Source: Candidatus Poribacteria bacterium (GTDB taxonomy: Bacteria > Poribacteria > WGA-4E > WGA-3G). Taken from it: DNA of 64,000 nt. The stretch is taken from positions 62,001 through 126,000 of the forward strand of contig JAJECN010000054.1 of NCBI GenBank assembly GCA_022821965.1, in the 5' to 3' direction. A program made the translations under genes and the position numbers. The notes beneath the pieces were generated by a model. The model saw nothing but the letters and a program-made list of their open reading frames with translations, did no database searches and was not told where the DNA came from. Below, piece by piece: positions 11,901 to 21,774 of the stretch (position 1 is the first letter of the stretch; every line of letters starts with the position of its first letter).

Positions 11901-12480
11901 GCGAGACTTAGAGATTCGGGGAACTGGAAATATTCTCGGAGCGGAACAGCACGGTCATATCGTCACCGTAGGCTATGAACTTTATTGTAAACTCCTTGAA
12001 GAGGCGGTCATGTCATTGAAGGGTGAAACGGTTGAAGAAACCGTGGAAACACGTATCAGTTTCCCTGTTGAGGCGTATCTACCTGATGATTACGTACCGG
12101 ACAGTCGTCAGAAGATATCTATCTACAAGAAAATTGCTGGGTTAAAGGATCCGGAGGCACTTAATGAACTCCGCGAAGAGCTTAGAGACCGGTACGGTGC
12201 GATTCCAGAGCCTGCAGAAATGTTACTGGAGATTGCCAACATCAAGCAGCTCAGTCAACGCCTTGGTATTACTGCCATTGTTGCTGGGAAGGAGCAGGTA
12301 AAGGTTACTTTTGACGAACGAAAACCGAGAATTAATGTGAAGAAATTGGTTGAGATTGTCCACCAAAGTAAAGAGCTTGAACTACAACCCCCGGCACAAC
12401 TTAAAATTCGGATGCCGGGAGTAACTGGCACGAATATGTTAATCGAATTGCAACAAACCTTAAAGGTGTTTGTTGCGTAA
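8977..12480 (+). CDS. mfd: Transcription-repair coupling factor
   Basis: 1167 aa. UvrB-like N-terminus, CarD-like RID (LKVGDYVVHVSHGIAVYDGI), RecG-like helicase motifs (DRLVCGDVGYGKTEVALRAAFKSV, DEEHRFGVKHKEKIK, TATPIPRTLHMSL, QLRGRVGR). Confidence 0.97.
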   Translation: MIEFLRKTENYQTLVACLKGGKKLPWLRGLANASTAYLLATLTNDFPEKSFLIVLPSQREAEQVLEEICTYRSYPTLETAPAADEQPEINLFPAWNPKLFDRIAPPKNTVSDRMRCLERLLHKERSVVVTTSQAMLYKLPPRERFVDACCVLNLGDEIDPDDVAARLIRGGYQNVELVEVKGEFARRGDILDVYPLTADTPVRIEFFGDEIDALRAFDPISQRSTESVQSVALTPLREVFSADVSVDHWQAQMDELIQEHATPQLINAVREITQSLTEAASSQYRLEECPLNDGIEAFLPMLIPETGLLTDYLPDDTIVCLIEPQWQKREVSQMQERTEELFQKKLEESNLMVPPDQLLVSFETLNAELEKYPVISSSLAPPREAAENALEPLHFEMKPLALPSGNYQTVINEMKTWAAAGMRIHVFCETPQQSKRVSEILAERELFPPDINTSVGAISEGFLNESLNLVVISEDELFGSRQRRPIRHRPSTDGTPILSLIDLKVGDYVVHVSHGIAVYDGIRRLAIDGKSQDFLILKYSADDVLYVPTYQVDLVQKYIGSKDNNYKPRVDRLGGTAWGRRKSKVKASIEQMADELLKLYALRQARKGFSFPAEVPWQTDFEALFPYQETDDQLQAIEDVKTDMEDERPMDRLVCGDVGYGKTEVALRAAFKSVMSEKQVAILVPTTILALQHHDTFEKRFQSFPVNIEMLNRFRTPKEIKEVKAGLASGTVDIVIGTHSLLSKTVEFDNLGLLIVDEEHRFGVKHKEKIKQFKETIDVLTLTATPIPRTLHMSLVGIRDFSIINTAPADRLPIQTFVMPYDSEVIREAIVAELSRDGQVFFVHNRVQDIQSIALMVQELVPEARIAVAHGQMPERELETIMLEFVRHKHDILVCTMIIESGLDIPNVNTILINRADALGLAQLYQLRGRVGRATTQAYGYLFYPQDRAITEGAQKRLRVIEEFTDLGSGFKIALRDLEIRGTGNILGAEQHGHIVTVGYELYCKLLEEAVMSLKGETVEETVETRISFPVEAYLPDDYVPDSRQKISIYKKIAGLKDPEALNELREELRDRYGAIPEPAEMLLEIANIKQLSQRLGITAIVAGKEQVKVTFDERKPRINVKKLVEIVHQSKELELQPPAQLKIRMPGVTGTNMLIELQQTLKVFVA

Positions 12481-12625
12481 CCGTAAAGACGAAAGGTCCA
12501 CTAAGAAAGACGTGCTACGCACATTTTCCAAAGCGCGTAAGCCTAACCAACGGGCAGGCTGGATATACAGAGAGGGATTTTATTTCCTAAACTCGCCTGA
12601 CCGAACCGCAAGGAACATTAAAAAT

Positions 12626-13597
12626 ATGAAAAAAACGATTACTATTTTTGTAATTGTCGCTATGACTTGTCTGTTGACATGGCGGTTTGTTCAATCTGAT
12701 GGTCATGAACAACCTGAACCTGCCATGGACGAGAGCCAAGTGATTTTGGTGGAATACAAATGGAATGGCGAATCCCATCAAATCTCGTTGGCAGACCTAA
12801 ACGCTGCAATCTCGGAATTGCCGGTTTACCGTCAGCAGAACTATAAGAGTCGAGCAGACAAAGCCGAGTATCTTGAGGAATTGATAGAGGAGAAACTTAA
12901 AATCCTTCGTGCTGCTGATGAGGGGTTTGATACGCTCCCTGAACATCTCAATAAACTCGAAGATTACACCCATCAGCTCATGGTCGAGAAACTGACCGAG
13001 GCGGAAGTAGATAACAAAATCGCCCATACCGACGAGGAGTTGATGGCGTACTATCAAGCGAATTTGAGTGAGTACGTTGAGGATGCCAAAGTTCGCGCGA
13101 CCTGCCTTACGCTTGATGACGAGGATTTCGCCAATGAGACGTTGGATGCCATCAAAGCGGGTAAGGACATCAAGGAGATGGCGAAGGAGCTGCACGCAGC
13201 AGGTAAGCTCGCCAACGGTCCTGGCAGCAACAATGAAGATGATCCGGGGAACACCTATTTCTTTTCCAAATCCGCGTCGCCGCTCTGGGCGGATTTCATT
13301 GACGCTGTTTTTGAACAAGAGGTCGGCGAAATGACGGATGTCCTCTTTGAAACTGATGTCAATGAGGAGACCTTCTACCTCATCTTCCGTAAAGAAGAGC
13401 ATCATCCAGACCGCCAACAGGAATTTGACGAGGTTAAAAGCGACGTTCGAAGGACTGTTGAACGTGATAAGAAACGTGCTCGCATCAATGAGTGGGTTAC
13501 CGAGATCACTGAGAAAGGCAAGTTAAAAACCTATCCTGAAAATATCCCGGAACCGCCGAAACCAGAAGAAGCGGAAACCGATGAGTCAGACCAATAG
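12626..13597 (+). CDS. Divergent periplasmic parvulin/SurA-type PPIase-like protein
   Basis: Signal MKKTITIFVIVAMTCLLTWRF. SurA-N-like helices and a degenerate PpiC region (EDAKVRATCLTLDDEDFANETLDAIKAGKDIKEMAKEL...). Start set to 12626. Confidence 0.7.
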   Translation: MKKTITIFVIVAMTCLLTWRFVQSDGHEQPEPAMDESQVILVEYKWNGESHQISLADLNAAISELPVYRQQNYKSRADKAEYLEELIEEKLKILRAADEGFDTLPEHLNKLEDYTHQLMVEKLTEAEVDNKIAHTDEELMAYYQANLSEYVEDAKVRATCLTLDDEDFANETLDAIKAGKDIKEMAKELHAAGKLANGPGSNNEDDPGNTYFFSKSASPLWADFIDAVFEQEVGEMTDVLFETDVNEETFYLIFRKEEHHPDRQQEFDEVKSDVRRTVERDKKRARINEWVTEITEKGKLKTYPENIPEPPKPEEAETDESDQ

Positions 13598-13721
13598 CAA
13601 TTAGTTGTCAGCCATCAGTGATCAGCAGTTAGTGAAGAAATAAGTCTTTAAACAATACAGTTAACCTTTTTGCTGATTGCTGATAGTCGATAGCTGATAG
13701 CCATAAGAAAAGGAGTAAAAA

Positions 13722-14750
13722 ATGGTCACAGCAGTTGCCCGCTTCATGGGCAAAGTCAATAATCAGTTCCAGCTTCCGGTTGTCCCTTTACTTTTACTCG
13801 GGATTCTTGCCACGCATCCTATCTTCTATAGCTGCGGTGACAAGGCAATCGGTGCTGACGGAACGGTCATCGCTGAATTTGATTGGAATGGTAAACAGCA
13901 CATCACCCTTGAAGAGATGATGCAAGAGATTAGCGAACTCCCGGAGTACAAGCAGCGTCAGTATCAAGACAAAGAAGGATTAGAAACCTACATGCTTCTC
14001 ATGGCAGAGAGTCGCTTAATTCTCAGTCTCGCCCGGGACGAAAAGCTCAACGAGGACCCCGAAATTCTCAAGAAGGTTCAGGAGTATCTTCACGAGTTGA
14101 TGGTTAAGAGGATTACGACGCAAGAGGTTGACGATAAGCTCACTTTGAGTGAAGAGGATTATATTCAATACTATGAAACGCACAAAGAGGAGTACGTGCG
14201 TCCGGCGCAAGTGAGGCTTTCATGTATTACGCTTCTTGATAAAGACCGGGCTGATGAAGCGTTCGCACAAATTAAAGGTGGCAAAGACATCCTTGAGGTT
14301 GCCCAGGAGCTTTCCGACCGCGGTGAACTCGTCGGTCCTGGGGCGAATCCAGCCTCTCCGGGGGACTCGGACTATATTAGCCGAGATTCCTTCCCAACAG
14401 GAACTGAGCCTTTCTTAGATGCAGCGTTCGCTGGAGAGAAAGGGACACTCCACGATGGCGTTATTGAAGTCGAAGTCCAAGGGCAGAAGTACTTCATGAT
14501 GTTCCGAAAAGATGACGCTCGTGACGAATACCAAAAGCCACTTGATGACGAAGATGTCCGTAAGAGTGTCGAGCGAAAAGCGGAACGTGAAAAACGGCAA
14601 CAACTCATGGATGAGTGGGTACGTCAGCTTCGTGAACGTGCTGAGGTCAAAACCTACATAGATCGCATCCCGGAGGCACAATCCGAAGAAGAGGCCACCG
14701 CGGAAGAAGAAACTGAAGATCCCGCCACCGAGGGACACCCTGAAGAATAG
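13722..14750 (+). CDS. Divergent parvulin/SurA-type PPIase-like protein, paralogue of the preceding gene
   Basis: Co-linear with 12626-13597: AEFDWNGKQHITLEEMMQEISELPEYKQRQYQDK vs VEYKWNGESHQISLADLNAAISELPVYRQQNYKSR. Acidic C-terminal tail. Confidence 0.72.
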   Translation: MVTAVARFMGKVNNQFQLPVVPLLLLGILATHPIFYSCGDKAIGADGTVIAEFDWNGKQHITLEEMMQEISELPEYKQRQYQDKEGLETYMLLMAESRLILSLARDEKLNEDPEILKKVQEYLHELMVKRITTQEVDDKLTLSEEDYIQYYETHKEEYVRPAQVRLSCITLLDKDRADEAFAQIKGGKDILEVAQELSDRGELVGPGANPASPGDSDYISRDSFPTGTEPFLDAAFAGEKGTLHDGVIEVEVQGQKYFMMFRKDDARDEYQKPLDDEDVRKSVERKAEREKRQQLMDEWVRQLRERAEVKTYIDRIPEAQSEEEATAEEETEDPATEGHPEE

Positions 14751-14817: not shown

Positions 14818-16122
14818 ATGGCTTACAGAATTGTTGCTTATCCTCTGCTCTGTTTATTGCTCATCAGTAGTGGTGTAAGCGTCAGTGTCGCTCGCACGTT
14901 TGATAGGATTATCGCTTACGTCAATGACGATGTTGTAACCAAGCGAGAACTTGATGTCTTGGTGAAGCAACGCGCGATGGAGCTCCAGCAAGTCTATCGC
15001 TTCAGTGAGCGTGAAGCACTCAGTAGGTCCGAACAACAACGACCTGAGCTTCTTGATCGGCTTATCAGACAGATGCTTCTTTTGGAAGCCGCGCTAACCT
15101 TGAAGGTTACTGTCAGTGATGCGGACGTAGAGCAGTACGTTCAAGACTTTAAAAAGAGATACCAGATTGAAACCGATGAGGAGTTTAAGGAGCAGTTAAA
15201 TCGAGAGGGCATGACACTCGTTGCTTTTCGTGAGCAATCGGAGCGGAACCTTAAAGCAGAGAGACTTGTGATGGGGCGGATTGTGCCGCGCTTACAAGTC
15301 CGCGACAGCGATATCCAAAAGTTTTTTGAAGAGAATCGAGACCAACTGCCAACTAAATCAGATAAAGTCGGTTTGCGACACATTTTTGTCGCCTTTAAAC
15401 CGAATCAAGCCGACCGGGATGCTGCATTTGAGACTGTTAGAAAAGCCGTTGATGAAATCAAGGCGGATAGTACGAAGTTTGAAGAGTTCGCACAGCGGTA
15501 TGCCCCGAAAAAGAATCCAAGTTCGCAAGCCGGAATGCTCATAGAAGCCACCACTGAAGAACTCAATCAATTTCCAGAGATATTTCAGAATGTTCTGAAG
15601 GACTTGTCAGAAGGCGCGCTGAGCGAACCGATTGAAGGAAGCGAAGGACTCTACGTTTTCGCTGTGGAACAGAAAACGGACGAGATGATTGCCTTTCGGT
15701 ATCTCATTGTTCCACTGGTGCCCAGTCCTGAGGCTATGCACGAAGCACGCGAGAATATCGTTGAAGTTTACAAAAAGTTGGAAGCGGGTGAGGATTTTAC
15801 TGCCCTTGCTGCAGCACATTCCGACGATGTTGAAACGCGAGAAAACGGCGGTGACCTCGGGGTTCGTTCCCTGACGGAACTCAACCCTAAAACGCGTGCG
15901 GTGATTGAAGCACTGGAAACTGGGACTTACAGCCAACCCCACGAAACTGAATCTGGACTCCACATTTTTAGCGTTGACGAGCGAAATAGCCCTGACCTGA
16001 GTGAAGCGGAGAAAAGACAGATCACCTCAATACTCCGTCAGCAACGGTTTCAGGAAGAATGGGACGCATATACCGACAAACTCCTCGAAAATGCCTACGT
16101 CAAAATCCAATTGAAAGAGTAA
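14818..16122 (+). CDS. surA: SurA-like periplasmic chaperone/peptidyl-prolyl isomerase (two PpiC domains)
   Basis: Signal peptide, SurA-N (FDRIIAYVNDDVVTKRELDVLVKQRAMEL), PpiC 1 (KVGLRHIFVAFKPNQADRDAAF), PpiC 2 (ENGGDLGVRSLTELNPKTRAVIEALETGTYSQPHETESGLHIFSVDER). Confidence 0.88.
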   Translation: MAYRIVAYPLLCLLLISSGVSVSVARTFDRIIAYVNDDVVTKRELDVLVKQRAMELQQVYRFSEREALSRSEQQRPELLDRLIRQMLLLEAALTLKVTVSDADVEQYVQDFKKRYQIETDEEFKEQLNREGMTLVAFREQSERNLKAERLVMGRIVPRLQVRDSDIQKFFEENRDQLPTKSDKVGLRHIFVAFKPNQADRDAAFETVRKAVDEIKADSTKFEEFAQRYAPKKNPSSQAGMLIEATTEELNQFPEIFQNVLKDLSEGALSEPIEGSEGLYVFAVEQKTDEMIAFRYLIVPLVPSPEAMHEARENIVEVYKKLEAGEDFTALAAAHSDDVETRENGGDLGVRSLTELNPKTRAVIEALETGTYSQPHETESGLHIFSVDERNSPDLSEAEKRQITSILRQQRFQEEWDAYTDKLLENAYVKIQLKE

Positions 16123-16129
16123 GAAATCC

Positions 16130-19100
16130 GTGAGAAAGAACGCGTCTGACGTGCCTACCTGTTATCAGTATCAATACGCGAAGGCGGTGCAGCAGTACGC
16201 TGTCCGCATTGCAACGTCAGGAATTGAGCGTATAATGCTCATGATGTTCGTGATCGCATGTCTGCTTTGTCTAGGACAGGGCGTTATCGCGCAAGATGCG
16301 CAACCCTCTGAACCTTCCACCACTGAAACAGTACCACCCGAATCCGCAGATCAAACGGAGCAGGAAGGAACCGCCTCAGAACGGTTGAATCCTGAAACAG
16401 ATGTCCCGGAAGAAGGCACAGTCATCGGCGATGGCGACGATATGGCTATAGTCGATAACTTCGTTCAAATTCACGGGAATGCCCTTATCAAATTTGAGGA
16501 TGTCATTCTCCGAGCAGACCATATCTGGGCTGATTTTGACGAAAACCTGATGCGAGCCTCAGGGAACGTCCACCTTAAGATAGGAAACGAGGAGACGTAC
16601 TCCGATGAACTCATCTTCAACCTTGAAAATAAAAAGGGAATTGCCCGCAACGGCTTTACGTTCAATGATCCATGGTATTTTGGGGGCAGTGAAATCTTTA
16701 AAATCGAAGAGGATCGTTCCTATATCCGCGGCGCGACGCTGACGACGTGTTCGTTGAAACATCCGCACTACTATTTCAGTGTCTCTGAAGTCATCGTCCG
16801 AATGAATCAGGAGATGATCGCCAAAAATATCGTTTTGCGTATTGGTGGGTATCCGCTGTTCTATTTTCCGGCGATTCGGCGGGATCTGCGTAAAGGTAAG
16901 ATCGCGAAGATCATCGTCAAGGTTGGAACGGATAGCTACCAAGGTCCCAACTTGAGTATTATCTTACCTGTGTCACGCAGGCGGCGTTATGATGGGGCGT
17001 TGCTCTATGATAGGAGTGCGAGACGTGGACAAGGTTACGGGTTTGAAGGAAAATACCGCTTCAATGACACACAGTTTCAAGAAATCTATATTCCTATTCC
17101 TCCGGACGTAACACCGAACCAACGCACGAAGTTGAAGGAGAAGGCGGACGAATTACATGATCGACTTGATGGTGAATACGACCGTTATTGGTTGCGGCAA
17201 ATTTTCCTGGAATATAAAATCACTGACGAGGATGTGAAGCGCGCGAAAGATCGCGCCGAAGAACTCCGCACGCAGCTTCAGGAAGAGGACGCTGACTTCG
17301 CACAGATCGCACAGAGCAATTCAGACCATTACGATACCCGTTATGATGGCGGGGATATGGGATTCCTCGTTCCCGGTGAACTTGATGAAGAAGGGAATCC
17401 GAAACTCGACCCCGTTTTGGAGGAAGCCGTCTTTGCGCTGGAAGAGGGTGAAATTAGTTCTGTTATCCAAACTGAATCCGCCTTCCATATCTTCAAAGCG
17501 GAACAGGTACTTGATGTCTATGGTGAACGCGAAATTAAACTCAGCCGTATTGATGTCGCTATTGCTGCGAGCGATGATACAGAATATGTCATACGCGAGT
17601 TGGCGAACGATATGCTCAAACGTGCCCAAGAAGGGGAGCCTTTTGAGCAATTGATACAAATTCCCGATGAATTTGCTGATGTTGCCCAACCTGTCTTGTC
17701 GGAACTCAATGAAGGTGAGGGGATGCTGCTAAATGAGATGGAATCCTCTTGGCAGCCCTCAGTCAAACGCTTAGAAAATCCGGGTGATGTCACTGAACGT
17801 AGACCTATTTCTATGCCCGAAGGACTTTACATTTTCCAACTCATCGAAAAAGAGCGAACCCCAACTTTTGAGGAAGTCGCTGAACAGTTTGAGGCAGAAT
17901 GGGATGCTTTTTACGAGGAACTGATGAATCCTCCGCCAGAGGAAGCTGTAGAAGATGGAATGCCTACTGATGACAACGGGGATGTCGAGCAGAGCGAACC
18001 AGAGGATGGAGAGGATAGCGAGATTACATCGGAAGAAACCGAAGAAGGTGATAAAGTCCAAGACACAACCGAAGACGCGCAATCGCAAGAACCGGACACT
18101 GCTACCGATGCACCAGAGCCTCTACAAACACCTGATGCCACCGATGCTGACGATACTGCTGACAACGGTGAGGGGACGGAGCAGAGCGAACCAGAAAATT
18201 CGGAGGACAGCGAAACCGCTTCTGATCAGGTCGAAGATGAAGTCGTTTCAGAAGACTCAGCCACCGAAGAAGACGCGGAAGATGGAGAAGCGGTAGAGGA
18301 CGAAGATGAGCTTAAGGTCTATCGGAAACACGGGTTTCGAGGACGGTGGGAAGATCCGAGTGCTGTGGCTTCAGATGCGCAAAGCATGTACGCGGGTGAA
18401 TTTAGCAGACGACCCATTCAAACCAAAAAGTCCTTCCGTCTCCTCAAAGTCGATAAAAAACGAACGTATCGAGGGGATATCTACTTCTATGGTGCAGACC
18501 GCTATTCCTACGAGCGACAGAACGCCACCCGAATCGGTAGGCGTTGGATTATGCGATGGGCACACACCCAATCCTTCTATACTCCGTGGGATGACCGTCA
18601 AGCCGGTAGGCGTCCTATCAATTTCACAGGTAGGACGGAGTTGCAAGCCCGGAATTTTAAGGAAGAATTAAAACTTCCCAGCGAATCCACACTCAGATCT
18701 TTCGGAATACTCACTTATGGAACGGGTTTTTCCACCGTTGCTGACGAGGATGTTGATGAGAACGGTAACCTGAGATTCTCGCGAGAAACTATCGGTGATC
18801 TCACAAGTAGGCTTGAAGTGCGGCACATTCACGATTTCACGGGTGAAGGCACAACCTCGCTACAAAAGCTTCCGCAGCTCACTGTGAATTTATCGCGGAT
18901 GCGTTTGGATGCTTTTCCACTCTTTAGTACCCTTAATGATGGCATGGAAACACTTGCCGAGAGATTCCGAACCGAAAAGCCGTTTCTTTCACTGCTCGCT
19001 TTTCCAACGCTTGACAGCGCAAGCGTCGACCTTGATGTTGAGTTCGGCAATTTCTTTAGAGAGGTTTATCGTGGTAAAGCTGGTGATGAGAGAGATGTCT

Positions 19101-20146
19101 TCCTACAGACCTTAGACCTTGGCTTTGATGTCCGCAAGCAGTCGACGCTCCTGATTACACCTTTGCGGGAGCTTCAACTCGGTCTTAATCTCAATACGAC
19201 CGCGGTTTGGCACGACCGGGATCAGGAAAACAATAGGAACATTATAAGGGGGATTTACAGTTTTAACGGAACTGCTACAAACACTCTTTTCCGTATCTAT
19301 AACATCAGTTATATCCCCGGAATGCGAAGGTTGCGACACGAAATACAATCCTCACTCCGGTTTAATTATCAACCCGCTGTCGATGAAGATGAGAACCTCT
19401 ACCCTTTCGGTCCTAGTACCTATTTCTATGAACGCAAGAGACTCACATATAACTTCAATACGAACTTTGAAATCAAAACTCGGCGGAGTCAGTCGGCACA
19501 CCGTATCTTCTATTTTGATACACGTCTCACCGCCGATTTCACTGAATTCGATCCTTTGTATGAGCGTCAATTTGAGCCTATTGAGAGTGATTTTACATTC
19601 GTTCCGCTTCCGAGTCGAAACCTAAACATGACCTTCCGGGTCACGCATGATCCGAATCCGCATCCGGTTGATGGCAAACAGTTCAAAGTGGTTGGCATCC
19701 GTACCAATATCCGTTATACGCGGCAGTCGTGGAACGTTAGCATCGGTAACTCGTTTAGTAAACGCCATACATCGAGACGTGCGTCGCGGTCTATCACTGC
19801 CACCGGTCGGTACCGTCATAGCCAAAACCTTGAATTCGATTTGAGCCTCATCTATTATCCGATTGATCGGCAGTTTTACTCACAACGTCTCACAGTTACA
19901 CGTAACCTCCACGATTGGAGTCTTCGCATTTCTTGGAGTCGAGTCGGTATTGACCGCGGCGATCCACGTTACAACAATGTCCGTCAAGACTTTACATTCC
20001 AAGTGAGTCTGATTCAAGAACCCGCAATTTCCATGGGTGTCGGTTACGACGCGACAACTGAAACTTGGGGGCTCCGTACCATACCAGCTGGCATGCCCTA
20101 CAATGCATTTGGCTCTGGAAACTCACTCGGCAGGTCTTACTTCTAA
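16130..20146 (+). CDS. LptD/OstA-like LPS-assembly outer-membrane protein with embedded SurA-like PPIase region and acidic linker
   Basis: OstA-type jellyroll (DNFVQIHGNALIKFEDVILRADHIWADFDENLMRASGNVHL...YFPAIRRDLRKGK), then a rotamase (DFAQIAQSNSDHYDTRYDGGDMGFL...LEEGEISSVIQTESAFHIFKAEQV), an Asp/Glu-rich linker, then a beta-barrel-like C-terminus rich in aromatic/alternating strands to the stop. GTG start at 16130, or ATG near 16234 matching the signal peptide. Confidence 0.82.
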   Translation: MRKNASDVPTCYQYQYAKAVQQYAVRIATSGIERIMLMMFVIACLLCLGQGVIAQDAQPSEPSTTETVPPESADQTEQEGTASERLNPETDVPEEGTVIGDGDDMAIVDNFVQIHGNALIKFEDVILRADHIWADFDENLMRASGNVHLKIGNEETYSDELIFNLENKKGIARNGFTFNDPWYFGGSEIFKIEEDRSYIRGATLTTCSLKHPHYYFSVSEVIVRMNQEMIAKNIVLRIGGYPLFYFPAIRRDLRKGKIAKIIVKVGTDSYQGPNLSIILPVSRRRRYDGALLYDRSARRGQGYGFEGKYRFNDTQFQEIYIPIPPDVTPNQRTKLKEKADELHDRLDGEYDRYWLRQIFLEYKITDEDVKRAKDRAEELRTQLQEEDADFAQIAQSNSDHYDTRYDGGDMGFLVPGELDEEGNPKLDPVLEEAVFALEEGEISSVIQTESAFHIFKAEQVLDVYGEREIKLSRIDVAIAASDDTEYVIRELANDMLKRAQEGEPFEQLIQIPDEFADVAQPVLSELNEGEGMLLNEMESSWQPSVKRLENPGDVTERRPISMPEGLYIFQLIEKERTPTFEEVAEQFEAEWDAFYEELMNPPPEEAVEDGMPTDDNGDVEQSEPEDGEDSEITSEETEEGDKVQDTTEDAQSQEPDTATDAPEPLQTPDATDADDTADNGEGTEQSEPENSEDSETASDQVEDEVVSEDSATEEDAEDGEAVEDEDELKVYRKHGFRGRWEDPSAVASDAQSMYAGEFSRRPIQTKKSFRLLKVDKKRTYRGDIYFYGADRYSYERQNATRIGRRWIMRWAHTQSFYTPWDDRQAGRRPINFTGRTELQARNFKEELKLPSESTLRSFGILTYGTGFSTVADEDVDENGNLRFSRETIGDLTSRLEVRHIHDFTGEGTTSLQKLPQLTVNLSRMRLDAFPLFSTLNDGMETLAERFRTEKPFLSLLAFPTLDSASVDLDVEFGNFFREVYRGKAGDERDVFLQTLDLGFDVRKQSTLLITPLRELQLGLNLNTTAVWHDRDQENNRNIIRGIYSFNGTATNTLFRIYNISYIPGMRRLRHEIQSSLRFNYQPAVDEDENLYPFGPSTYFYERKRLTYNFNTNFEIKTRRSQSAHRIFYFDTRLTADFTEFDPLYERQFEPIESDFTFVPLPSRNLNMTFRVTHDPNPHPVDGKQFKVVGIRTNIRYTRQSWNVSIGNSFSKRHTSRRASRSITATGRYRHSQNLEFDLSLIYYPIDRQFYSQRLTVTRNLHDWSLRISWSRVGIDRGDPRYNNVRQDFTFQVSLIQEPAISMGVGYDATTETWGLRTIPAGMPYNAFGSGNSLGRSYF

Positions 20147-20208: not shown

Positions 20209-21774
20209 ATGAGCACCAACCTCGCAGAAATCGAAAGTAGACTGTGGAGTGCTGCAGATGAACTCAGAGCCAACTCCCGCCTCAGAGCCTCAGAGTACTC
20301 AACGCCTGTGCTTGGGCTTATCTTCTTACGGTATGCAGACCATAAATTTACACAGGCTGAACAAGAAATCGGTCGTGAAGCCACTACAAGCACACGCAGA
20401 CGTACCGATCCAAAAACGCAATATCAGGCGCGCGGTGTATTTTATCTGCCAGAGAAAGCGCGGTTTCAGCACCTCTTGAGTTTACCGGAGGGTGAAAACA
20501 TTGGACAAGCTGTTACGGATGCGATGAAGGCTATAGAAAAAGAAAATCCGCAGGTTGATGGCATCCTACCCAAGACTTACAATCGCCTTGAAAAAAACAC
20601 GCTCCTTGAACTCCTCCGTATCATGGAACAAATCCCCATGGACATTGAGGGTGATGCTTTCGGAAGGGTTTACGAGTATTTTCTCGGCAATTTCGCCATG
20701 AGCGAAGGACAACGCGGCGGAGAGTTTTTTACCCCTACTTCTCTTGTTAAACTCATCGTTGAGATCCTCCAACCTTTTCACGGTCGTATTTTTGATCCGG
20801 CTTGTGGCTCTGGCGGTATGTTCGTCCAGAGTGCAGCGTTCATTAGTAACCACAAGAAAAATGGAAACCTTGGAGACATCAGCATCTACGGCGTTGAACG
20901 CGTTGCCGAAACTATCAGGTTGTGCAAAATGAACCTCGCAGTCCATGGACTTGAAGGCGATGTCAAGCAAGCCAATAGTTACTACGAGGATTCGCATAAC
21001 TGCCTCGGTAGGTTTGATTTCGTCATGGCAAATCCACCTTTCAATGTCGATCGCGTAGACATGGAACGCCTTAAAGACGATCCGCGATTTCCGTTCGGTA
21101 TGCCACGCGTTGACAATGCCAACTATCTCTGGATACAACTGTTTTATAGTGCGCTCTCTGAATCTGGGCGCGCAGGCTTTGTGATGGCGAACTCTGCTGC
21201 AGATGCCCGTGCCTCCGAACTCGAAATCCGCACACAGATTATCAAATCGGGGGCGGTGGATGTTATCGTCAGTATCGCTTCAAATTTCTTCTACACCGTT
21301 ACTTTACCCTGTACCCTCTGGTTTTTCGACAAATCGAAACGTGATAAAGATAGACACGATAAGGTGTTATTTATTGACGCACGCCACCTCTATCAGCAGG
21401 TAAGTCGTGCCCATCGGGAATTCACACCTTTGCAGCTTGAATTTCTTGCGAATATCGTTAGGCTCTATCGTGGCGAAATTCCTGAAAATCAACACGACAG
21501 CGCGGATTTCCTTACCACAAAGTTTCCCGATGCAGAATATATTGATGTTCCTGGACTTTGCAAGGTAGCGACGATTGCCGAAATTGAAGCGCAAGGATGG
21601 AGCCTCAATCCGGGACGCTATGTCGGCGTTGCTGAACAGACGGCTGACGATTTCGATTTCGCCGAACGCTTTGGGGAACTCAACGAAGAATTGGCGGTAC
21701 TAAATGCTGAGGCGCATCAACTTGAGGAACGCATCGCCGAAAATGTTGCAAGGATTTTGGAAGATGCGGTATAA
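20209..21774 (+). CDS. hsdM: Type I restriction-modification methyltransferase (M subunit)
   Basis: HsdM-N ([39 protein letters not shown]), [37 protein letters not shown]. Confidence 0.95.

Follow-up and report, generated by a model that had tools for sequence, protein, structure and literature searches.

An LptD in Poribacteria with predicted SurA-like parvulin units embedded in its barrel

The window analyzed here, a stretch of 64,000 nucleotides from a Candidatus Poribacteria genome, contains an open reading frame (ORF) that sequence comparisons and structure models confirm as a predicted LptD, in which a jellyroll and four barrel strands are followed by a parvulin insert and then by the rest of a 26-strand barrel. 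Its predicted role is the insertion of LPS into the outer leaflet. As the first-pass annotation had described it, the ORF (16130-20146) is intact, a single uninterrupted frame of 1338 codons, and the LptD with parvulin insert is conserved across the Poribacteria. An LptD/SurA fusion in this phylum was described nowhere in the literature searched, mostly papers outside subscription journals, which agrees with the earlier impression of an undescribed architecture. The features discussed below are as follows (window coordinates, strand; residues refer to the ORF product, P0001).

12470..13597, +, second Rotamase_2 gene, of the same kind as the next, conserved in part of the phylum (Pfam; gene order)
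13722..14750, +, Rotamase_2 gene, periplasmic or lipoprotein isomerase-like, a conserved neighbor (Pfam; gene order)
14818..16122, +, surA, with SurA_N, two parvulin domains, and the C-terminal region (Pfam; PDB SurA)
16130..20146, +, lptD ORF, 1338 codons and 1338 aa, no internal stop
16130..16234, +, 5' extension, probably untranslated (GTG at 16130; the ATG at 16235 precedes the signal peptide)
16235..16291, +, predicted signal peptide, residues 36-54 (hydrophobic stretch MLMMFVIACLLCLGQGVIA before Q, from sequence reading)
16412..16897, +, LptA/LptD-type jellyroll, residues 95-256 (hhalign, PDB 7omm, NCBIfam LptD, homologue model)
16913..17095, +, barrel strands beta1-beta4, residues 262-322 (AlphaFold model m50cfceeb3b04; same pattern in the homologue model)
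17096..18430, +, whole insert, residues 323-767, in turn T2 between beta4 and beta5 (models, profile comparison)
17177..17518, +, parvulin unit 1, residues 350-463, SurA P1-like (PF00639; tree)
17519..17851, +, parvulin unit 2, residues 464-574, SurA P2-like, degenerate (hhalign/hmmsearch to SurA P1+P2; model)
17852..17938, +, parvulin unit 3, first part, residues 575-603 (alignment with linker-less relatives)
17939..18310, +, acidic low-complexity stretch, residues 604-727, inside unit 3 (composition)
18311..18430, +, parvulin unit 3, second part, residues 728-767 (relatives' alignment; model)
18431..20008, +, barrel strands beta5-beta26, residues 768-1293 (AlphaFold model; Foldseek to LptD)
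20009..20143, +, C-terminal tail ending SYF (sequence; low model confidence)

The sequences flanking the insert had been read as OstA/LptD-like, and this reading held at both ends. At the N terminus, where the ORFs of relatives L007, L008, and L010 begin at positions matching residue 36-38 of the window protein, the N-flank profile matched residues 69-230 of E. coli LptD (hhalign E value, 1.7e-6). The jellyroll also matched PDB 7omm LptD (E value, 1.1e-4), and the N flank of P0001 itself matched the NCBIfam LptD model PRK04423 (E value, 1.3e-6). Two NCBIfam LptD models were matched by 14/16 and 12/16 homologues, with a best E value of 2.2e-9. For the C-terminal flank, comparing its profile to the PDB by sequence led to nothing useful; the deep homologue L049 matched LptD_2 there (PF19838; E value, 4.7e-9, above the profile cut-off). 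A Pfam scan of P0001 alone returned the anticipated Rotamase domain (PF00639, residues 360-458; E value, 2.7e-21) and no match in the flanks, where LptD came to light through the homologues instead. PF04453 (LptD) had no match in the window's own genome and was positive in the E. coli and Caulobacter control genomes. Because the LptD fold is present, we infer that this miss reflects the limited reach of the profile.

AlphaFold models were obtained for a homologue that lacks the acidic stretch and for residues 250-1338 of the window protein. Both have LptD structures as top PDB matches (Foldseek; best E values, 5.7e-22 and 1e-10), followed by SurA or tandem-parvulin proteins. Among the best non-LptD structures is the tandem-parvulin PPIase of PDB 8hm3/8hm4, which has parvulin domains in common with the insert but is a separate protein, outside any barrel. 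The pTM of the models is moderate (0.55-0.59), too low to place the parvulin units relative to the jellyroll. Compared to LptD (E. coli b0054; PDB 4q35 and 7omm), the protein shares the jellyroll, the 26-strand barrel, the top Foldseek matches, and Lpt partners in the genome, whereas it differs by a parvulin insert of about 310-500 residues in periplasmic turn T2 and by going unrecognized by PF04453. In addition, Cys207 is the only cysteine of the mature window protein, which thus lacks the two disulphides that link the domains of E. coli LptD; this pair is not regarded as universal among LptDs. The window's genome also encodes LpxC, LptF/G, and LptE, and no second LptD was detected in it.

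In the AlphaFold model of the window protein, the strands preceding the insert lie at residues 262-268 (beta1), 272-283 (beta2), 287-296 (beta3), and 300-322 (beta4, extended), and those following it begin with beta5 (768-792) and beta6 (801-816) and end with beta26 (1285-1293). The count before the C-terminal tail is 26 in the models, as in canonical LptD, and in both of them the insert is borne on a stalk of two lengthened strands, beta4 and beta5. The membrane side of the insert was derived from alignment register together with the strand order of the predicted models; the length of an inter-strand gap alone cannot separate periplasmic from extracellular turns. Strand beta6 (GRRWIMRWAHTQ) aligns with the E. 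coli LptD segment RRWLFYWNHSG, which starts at residue 309, a match that is weak alone and in register (core GRRWIMRWAH versus RRWLFYWNH at 309). EL4 of E. coli LptD comprises residues 330-352 (PMC13067283) and therefore comes after beta7. Taken with the register of beta6, this implies that beta6 runs outside-in and beta5 inside-out, and that the insert ends in the periplasm. The predicted location of the insert is periplasmic turn T2, between beta4 and beta5, in line with the earlier suggestion that a model might show the PPIase hanging from a periplasmic turn; the total of 26 strands is consistent with this location. Extracellular loop 3 was first considered because the beta4-turn-beta5 of E. 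coli faces one long strand in Poribacteria; it was rejected, as both models show one strand there, the strands then number 26, and beta6 corresponds to its E. coli counterpart.

An additional parvulin domain was observed in the beta10/beta11 turn of LptD in L049 (1-3795; genome G040, shared with L133) and L051 (genome G039), followed by a stray strand-helix from another unit. Both are Poribacteria genomes outside the window's class, and beta10/beta11 is also an even-odd, hence periplasmic, turn. In the window protein, this beta10/beta11 parvulin may have left a remnant in the form of a helix at residues 930-945.

The insert itself proved to be more complex than the single PpiC domain with a C-terminal helix originally proposed for positions 17100-18314. 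Its start was nearly right (about 17096), but it ends further downstream, at about 18430, and comprises two whole parvulin units and one partial unit in tandem, the third of which has neither its first strand nor its first helix. Where relatives lack the acidic stretch, they show three Rotamase stretches, and in them the supposed SurA helix runs on as TPTFEELARQYSEG..GGDKGYRGPWE.., which is a third parvulin unit. The match to the SurA C-terminal helix was rejected on the alignment of these linker-less relatives, in which the segment forms the first helix of unit 3. Members of other families and of another class likewise have three units and no acidic stretch. The acidic stretch (124 residues, 55 D/E and 1 K/R) has an AlphaFold pLDDT of about 25-30 in the window protein; it occurs in part of the phylum with variable length and is missing from deep relatives. 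Judged from these sequences, it is a clade-specific, fast-evolving insertion that splits unit 3 in the window's clade. It had been recognized before, at 17941-18314 instead of 17939-18310, but as a linker after the parvulin region rather than inside a unit.

SurA is the top PDB match of the insert, with P1 and P2 covered in one stretch, and units 1 and 2 are collinear with SurA P1-P2 (hhalign E value, 1.9e-13), not with the second PpiC and C-terminal helix of surA as first thought. Likeness to SurA (PDB 1m5y) extends to gene order, surA being the adjacent gene. Unlike SurA, however, the insert lacks the SurA_N core (no Pfam match in P0001) and the C-terminal part, adds a third, truncated parvulin unit, has lost most of its catalytic histidines, and is fused into the client. 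In a tree of roughly 100-residue domains, which is weakly resolved, nine unit 1 sequences group with SurA P1 of one deep Poribacterium (support, 95/89), while unit 2 joins SurA P2 of the same organism weakly (59/75). The comparisons support derivation of the insert from SurA, and the insert probably arose from surA ahead of the diversification of the phylum. The first-pass annotation had invoked duplication of the neighboring surA; the kinship stands on the PDB match, the collinearity, the upstream surA, and the unit 1 grouping, and duplication itself is likely rather than proven, because the tree leaves unit 2 unplaced.

The query was matched in 84/85 Poribacteria genomes, representing 21/22 genera. 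All named loci (74/74) belong to Candidatus Poribacteria, and in a scan of named genomes only Poribacteria appeared among the best 80 of 94 relatives. In every named locus with a long ORF (66/66), the three parts share a single frame, and several of these loci lie in complete chromosomes. A misassembly of two genes, the doubt raised at the outset, is rejected on these counts. Gene order is conserved as mfd, one or more Rotamase_2 genes, surA, and lptD, with surA just upstream of lptD throughout the phylum; the window's surA product matches PDB SurA over 26-430 (E value, 3e-22). Four consecutive genes of the window thus carry parvulin-type domains (the two Rotamase_2 genes at 12470-14750, surA, and lptD). 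In family f5 (L077 and L079), the free SurA upstream of lptD keeps its N and C parts and has lost its parvulin domains, and LptD retains the insert beside this parvulin-less SurA. The second Rotamase_2 gene of the same two loci is a tandem fusion of about 700 aa. Directly downstream of the window's lptD lies a type I restriction-modification methylase-like gene (20209-21774), which is found near lptD in several relatives as well.

The first catalytic histidine of parvulins is present in 0/40 unit 1 and 1/40 unit 2 sequences, and the second in 33/40 and 3/40, respectively; the histidine pair of an active parvulin is largely missing from these two units in the sequences compared. The Asp of unit 1 is kept in most members. 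Among near relatives, on which these values rest because dS is saturated in more distant pairs, dN/dS is 0.02-0.13 for units 1 and 2, close to that of the barrel (0.06-0.11), and 0.22-0.36 for the acidic stretch where computable. The insert is thus under purifying selection. Since it is retained while its catalytic histidines are largely lost, isomerase catalysis is unlikely, and binding or scaffolding is the likelier role. A precedent exists in PPIase-1 of E. coli SurA, which is not a functional isomerase yet has a binding site for OMPs (PMC13067283).

We favor, at about even confidence, a cis-acting, non-catalytic SurA-like module that would hold LptD strands or dock LptD to BAM. As long as LptD is still unfolded in the periplasm, or only half-folded on BAM, the tethered units would hold its own strands or, alternatively, dock it to BAM; once assembly is done, they would hang below the barrel, next to the jellyroll. 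This reading is preferred because the insert is SurA-like, periplasmic, conserved, and constrained, because an inactive PPIase-1 still binds OMPs, and because family f5 keeps the insert. Against it, the SurA core formed by the N and C parts is absent from the insert. In E. coli, this core does most of the chaperoning. The cis copy also looks redundant, because a free SurA with both parvulin domains adjoins lptD in most of the phylum, and the units may instead serve the finished exporter. The latter is the main rival to the cis module: the rigid stalk and the units would steady the jellyroll, lateral gate, or LptA/LptC junction of the completed Lpt machine, or bind another periplasmic partner. 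The seat of the insert on a pair of extended strands, close to those of the N terminus, the lost catalytic residues, the strong constraint, and the second parvulin site in the beta10/beta11 turn of G039 and G040 all suit such a structural role, but the closest relative of the insert is SurA rather than a generic scaffold and no partner is known, and we regard it as possible but doubtful.

The remaining explanations fare worse. LptD could be a membrane-anchored platform presenting its parvulin domains in trans, as chaperone or isomerase, to other outer-membrane proteins; the window's genome has only three PF00639 genes (a PpiD-like gene, surA, and lptD), and most unit 1 sequences keep the Asp and second His, but with the first active-site His missing from all 40 unit 1 sequences and the second from 37 of 40 unit 2 sequences, this is improbable. 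A functionless, neutrally hitchhiking insertion would fit the fast evolution of the long acidic stretch, but hardly the strong purifying selection on the parvulin units or their retention across the phylum, and is very improbable. That the insert replaces LptE as barrel plug was suggested by the initial lack of a PF04390 match in the window's genome. Pfam detects LptE in 33/82 genomes, however, and searching the window's genome with the LptE of a relative recovered a gene of 80% identity, which led us to reject an idea that is now scarcely credible.

LptD is among the largest and slowest of barrels, and the slowness of its assembly has made it a model problem. If the cis reading applies, for which we judge the chances slightly short of even, an outer-membrane barrel would use its own SurA-derived chaperone module for assembly, a chaperone-client fusion spanning the sponge-associated phylum Poribacteria. 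Only two protein families are said to be conserved in all diderms, and LptD is one of them (PMC13067283); the parvulin-bearing form marks a whole phylum. A natural LptD with permanent SurA domains would offer a direct test of their effect on a client, and the same fusion could show where on the barrel SurA domains must act and whether catalysis matters.
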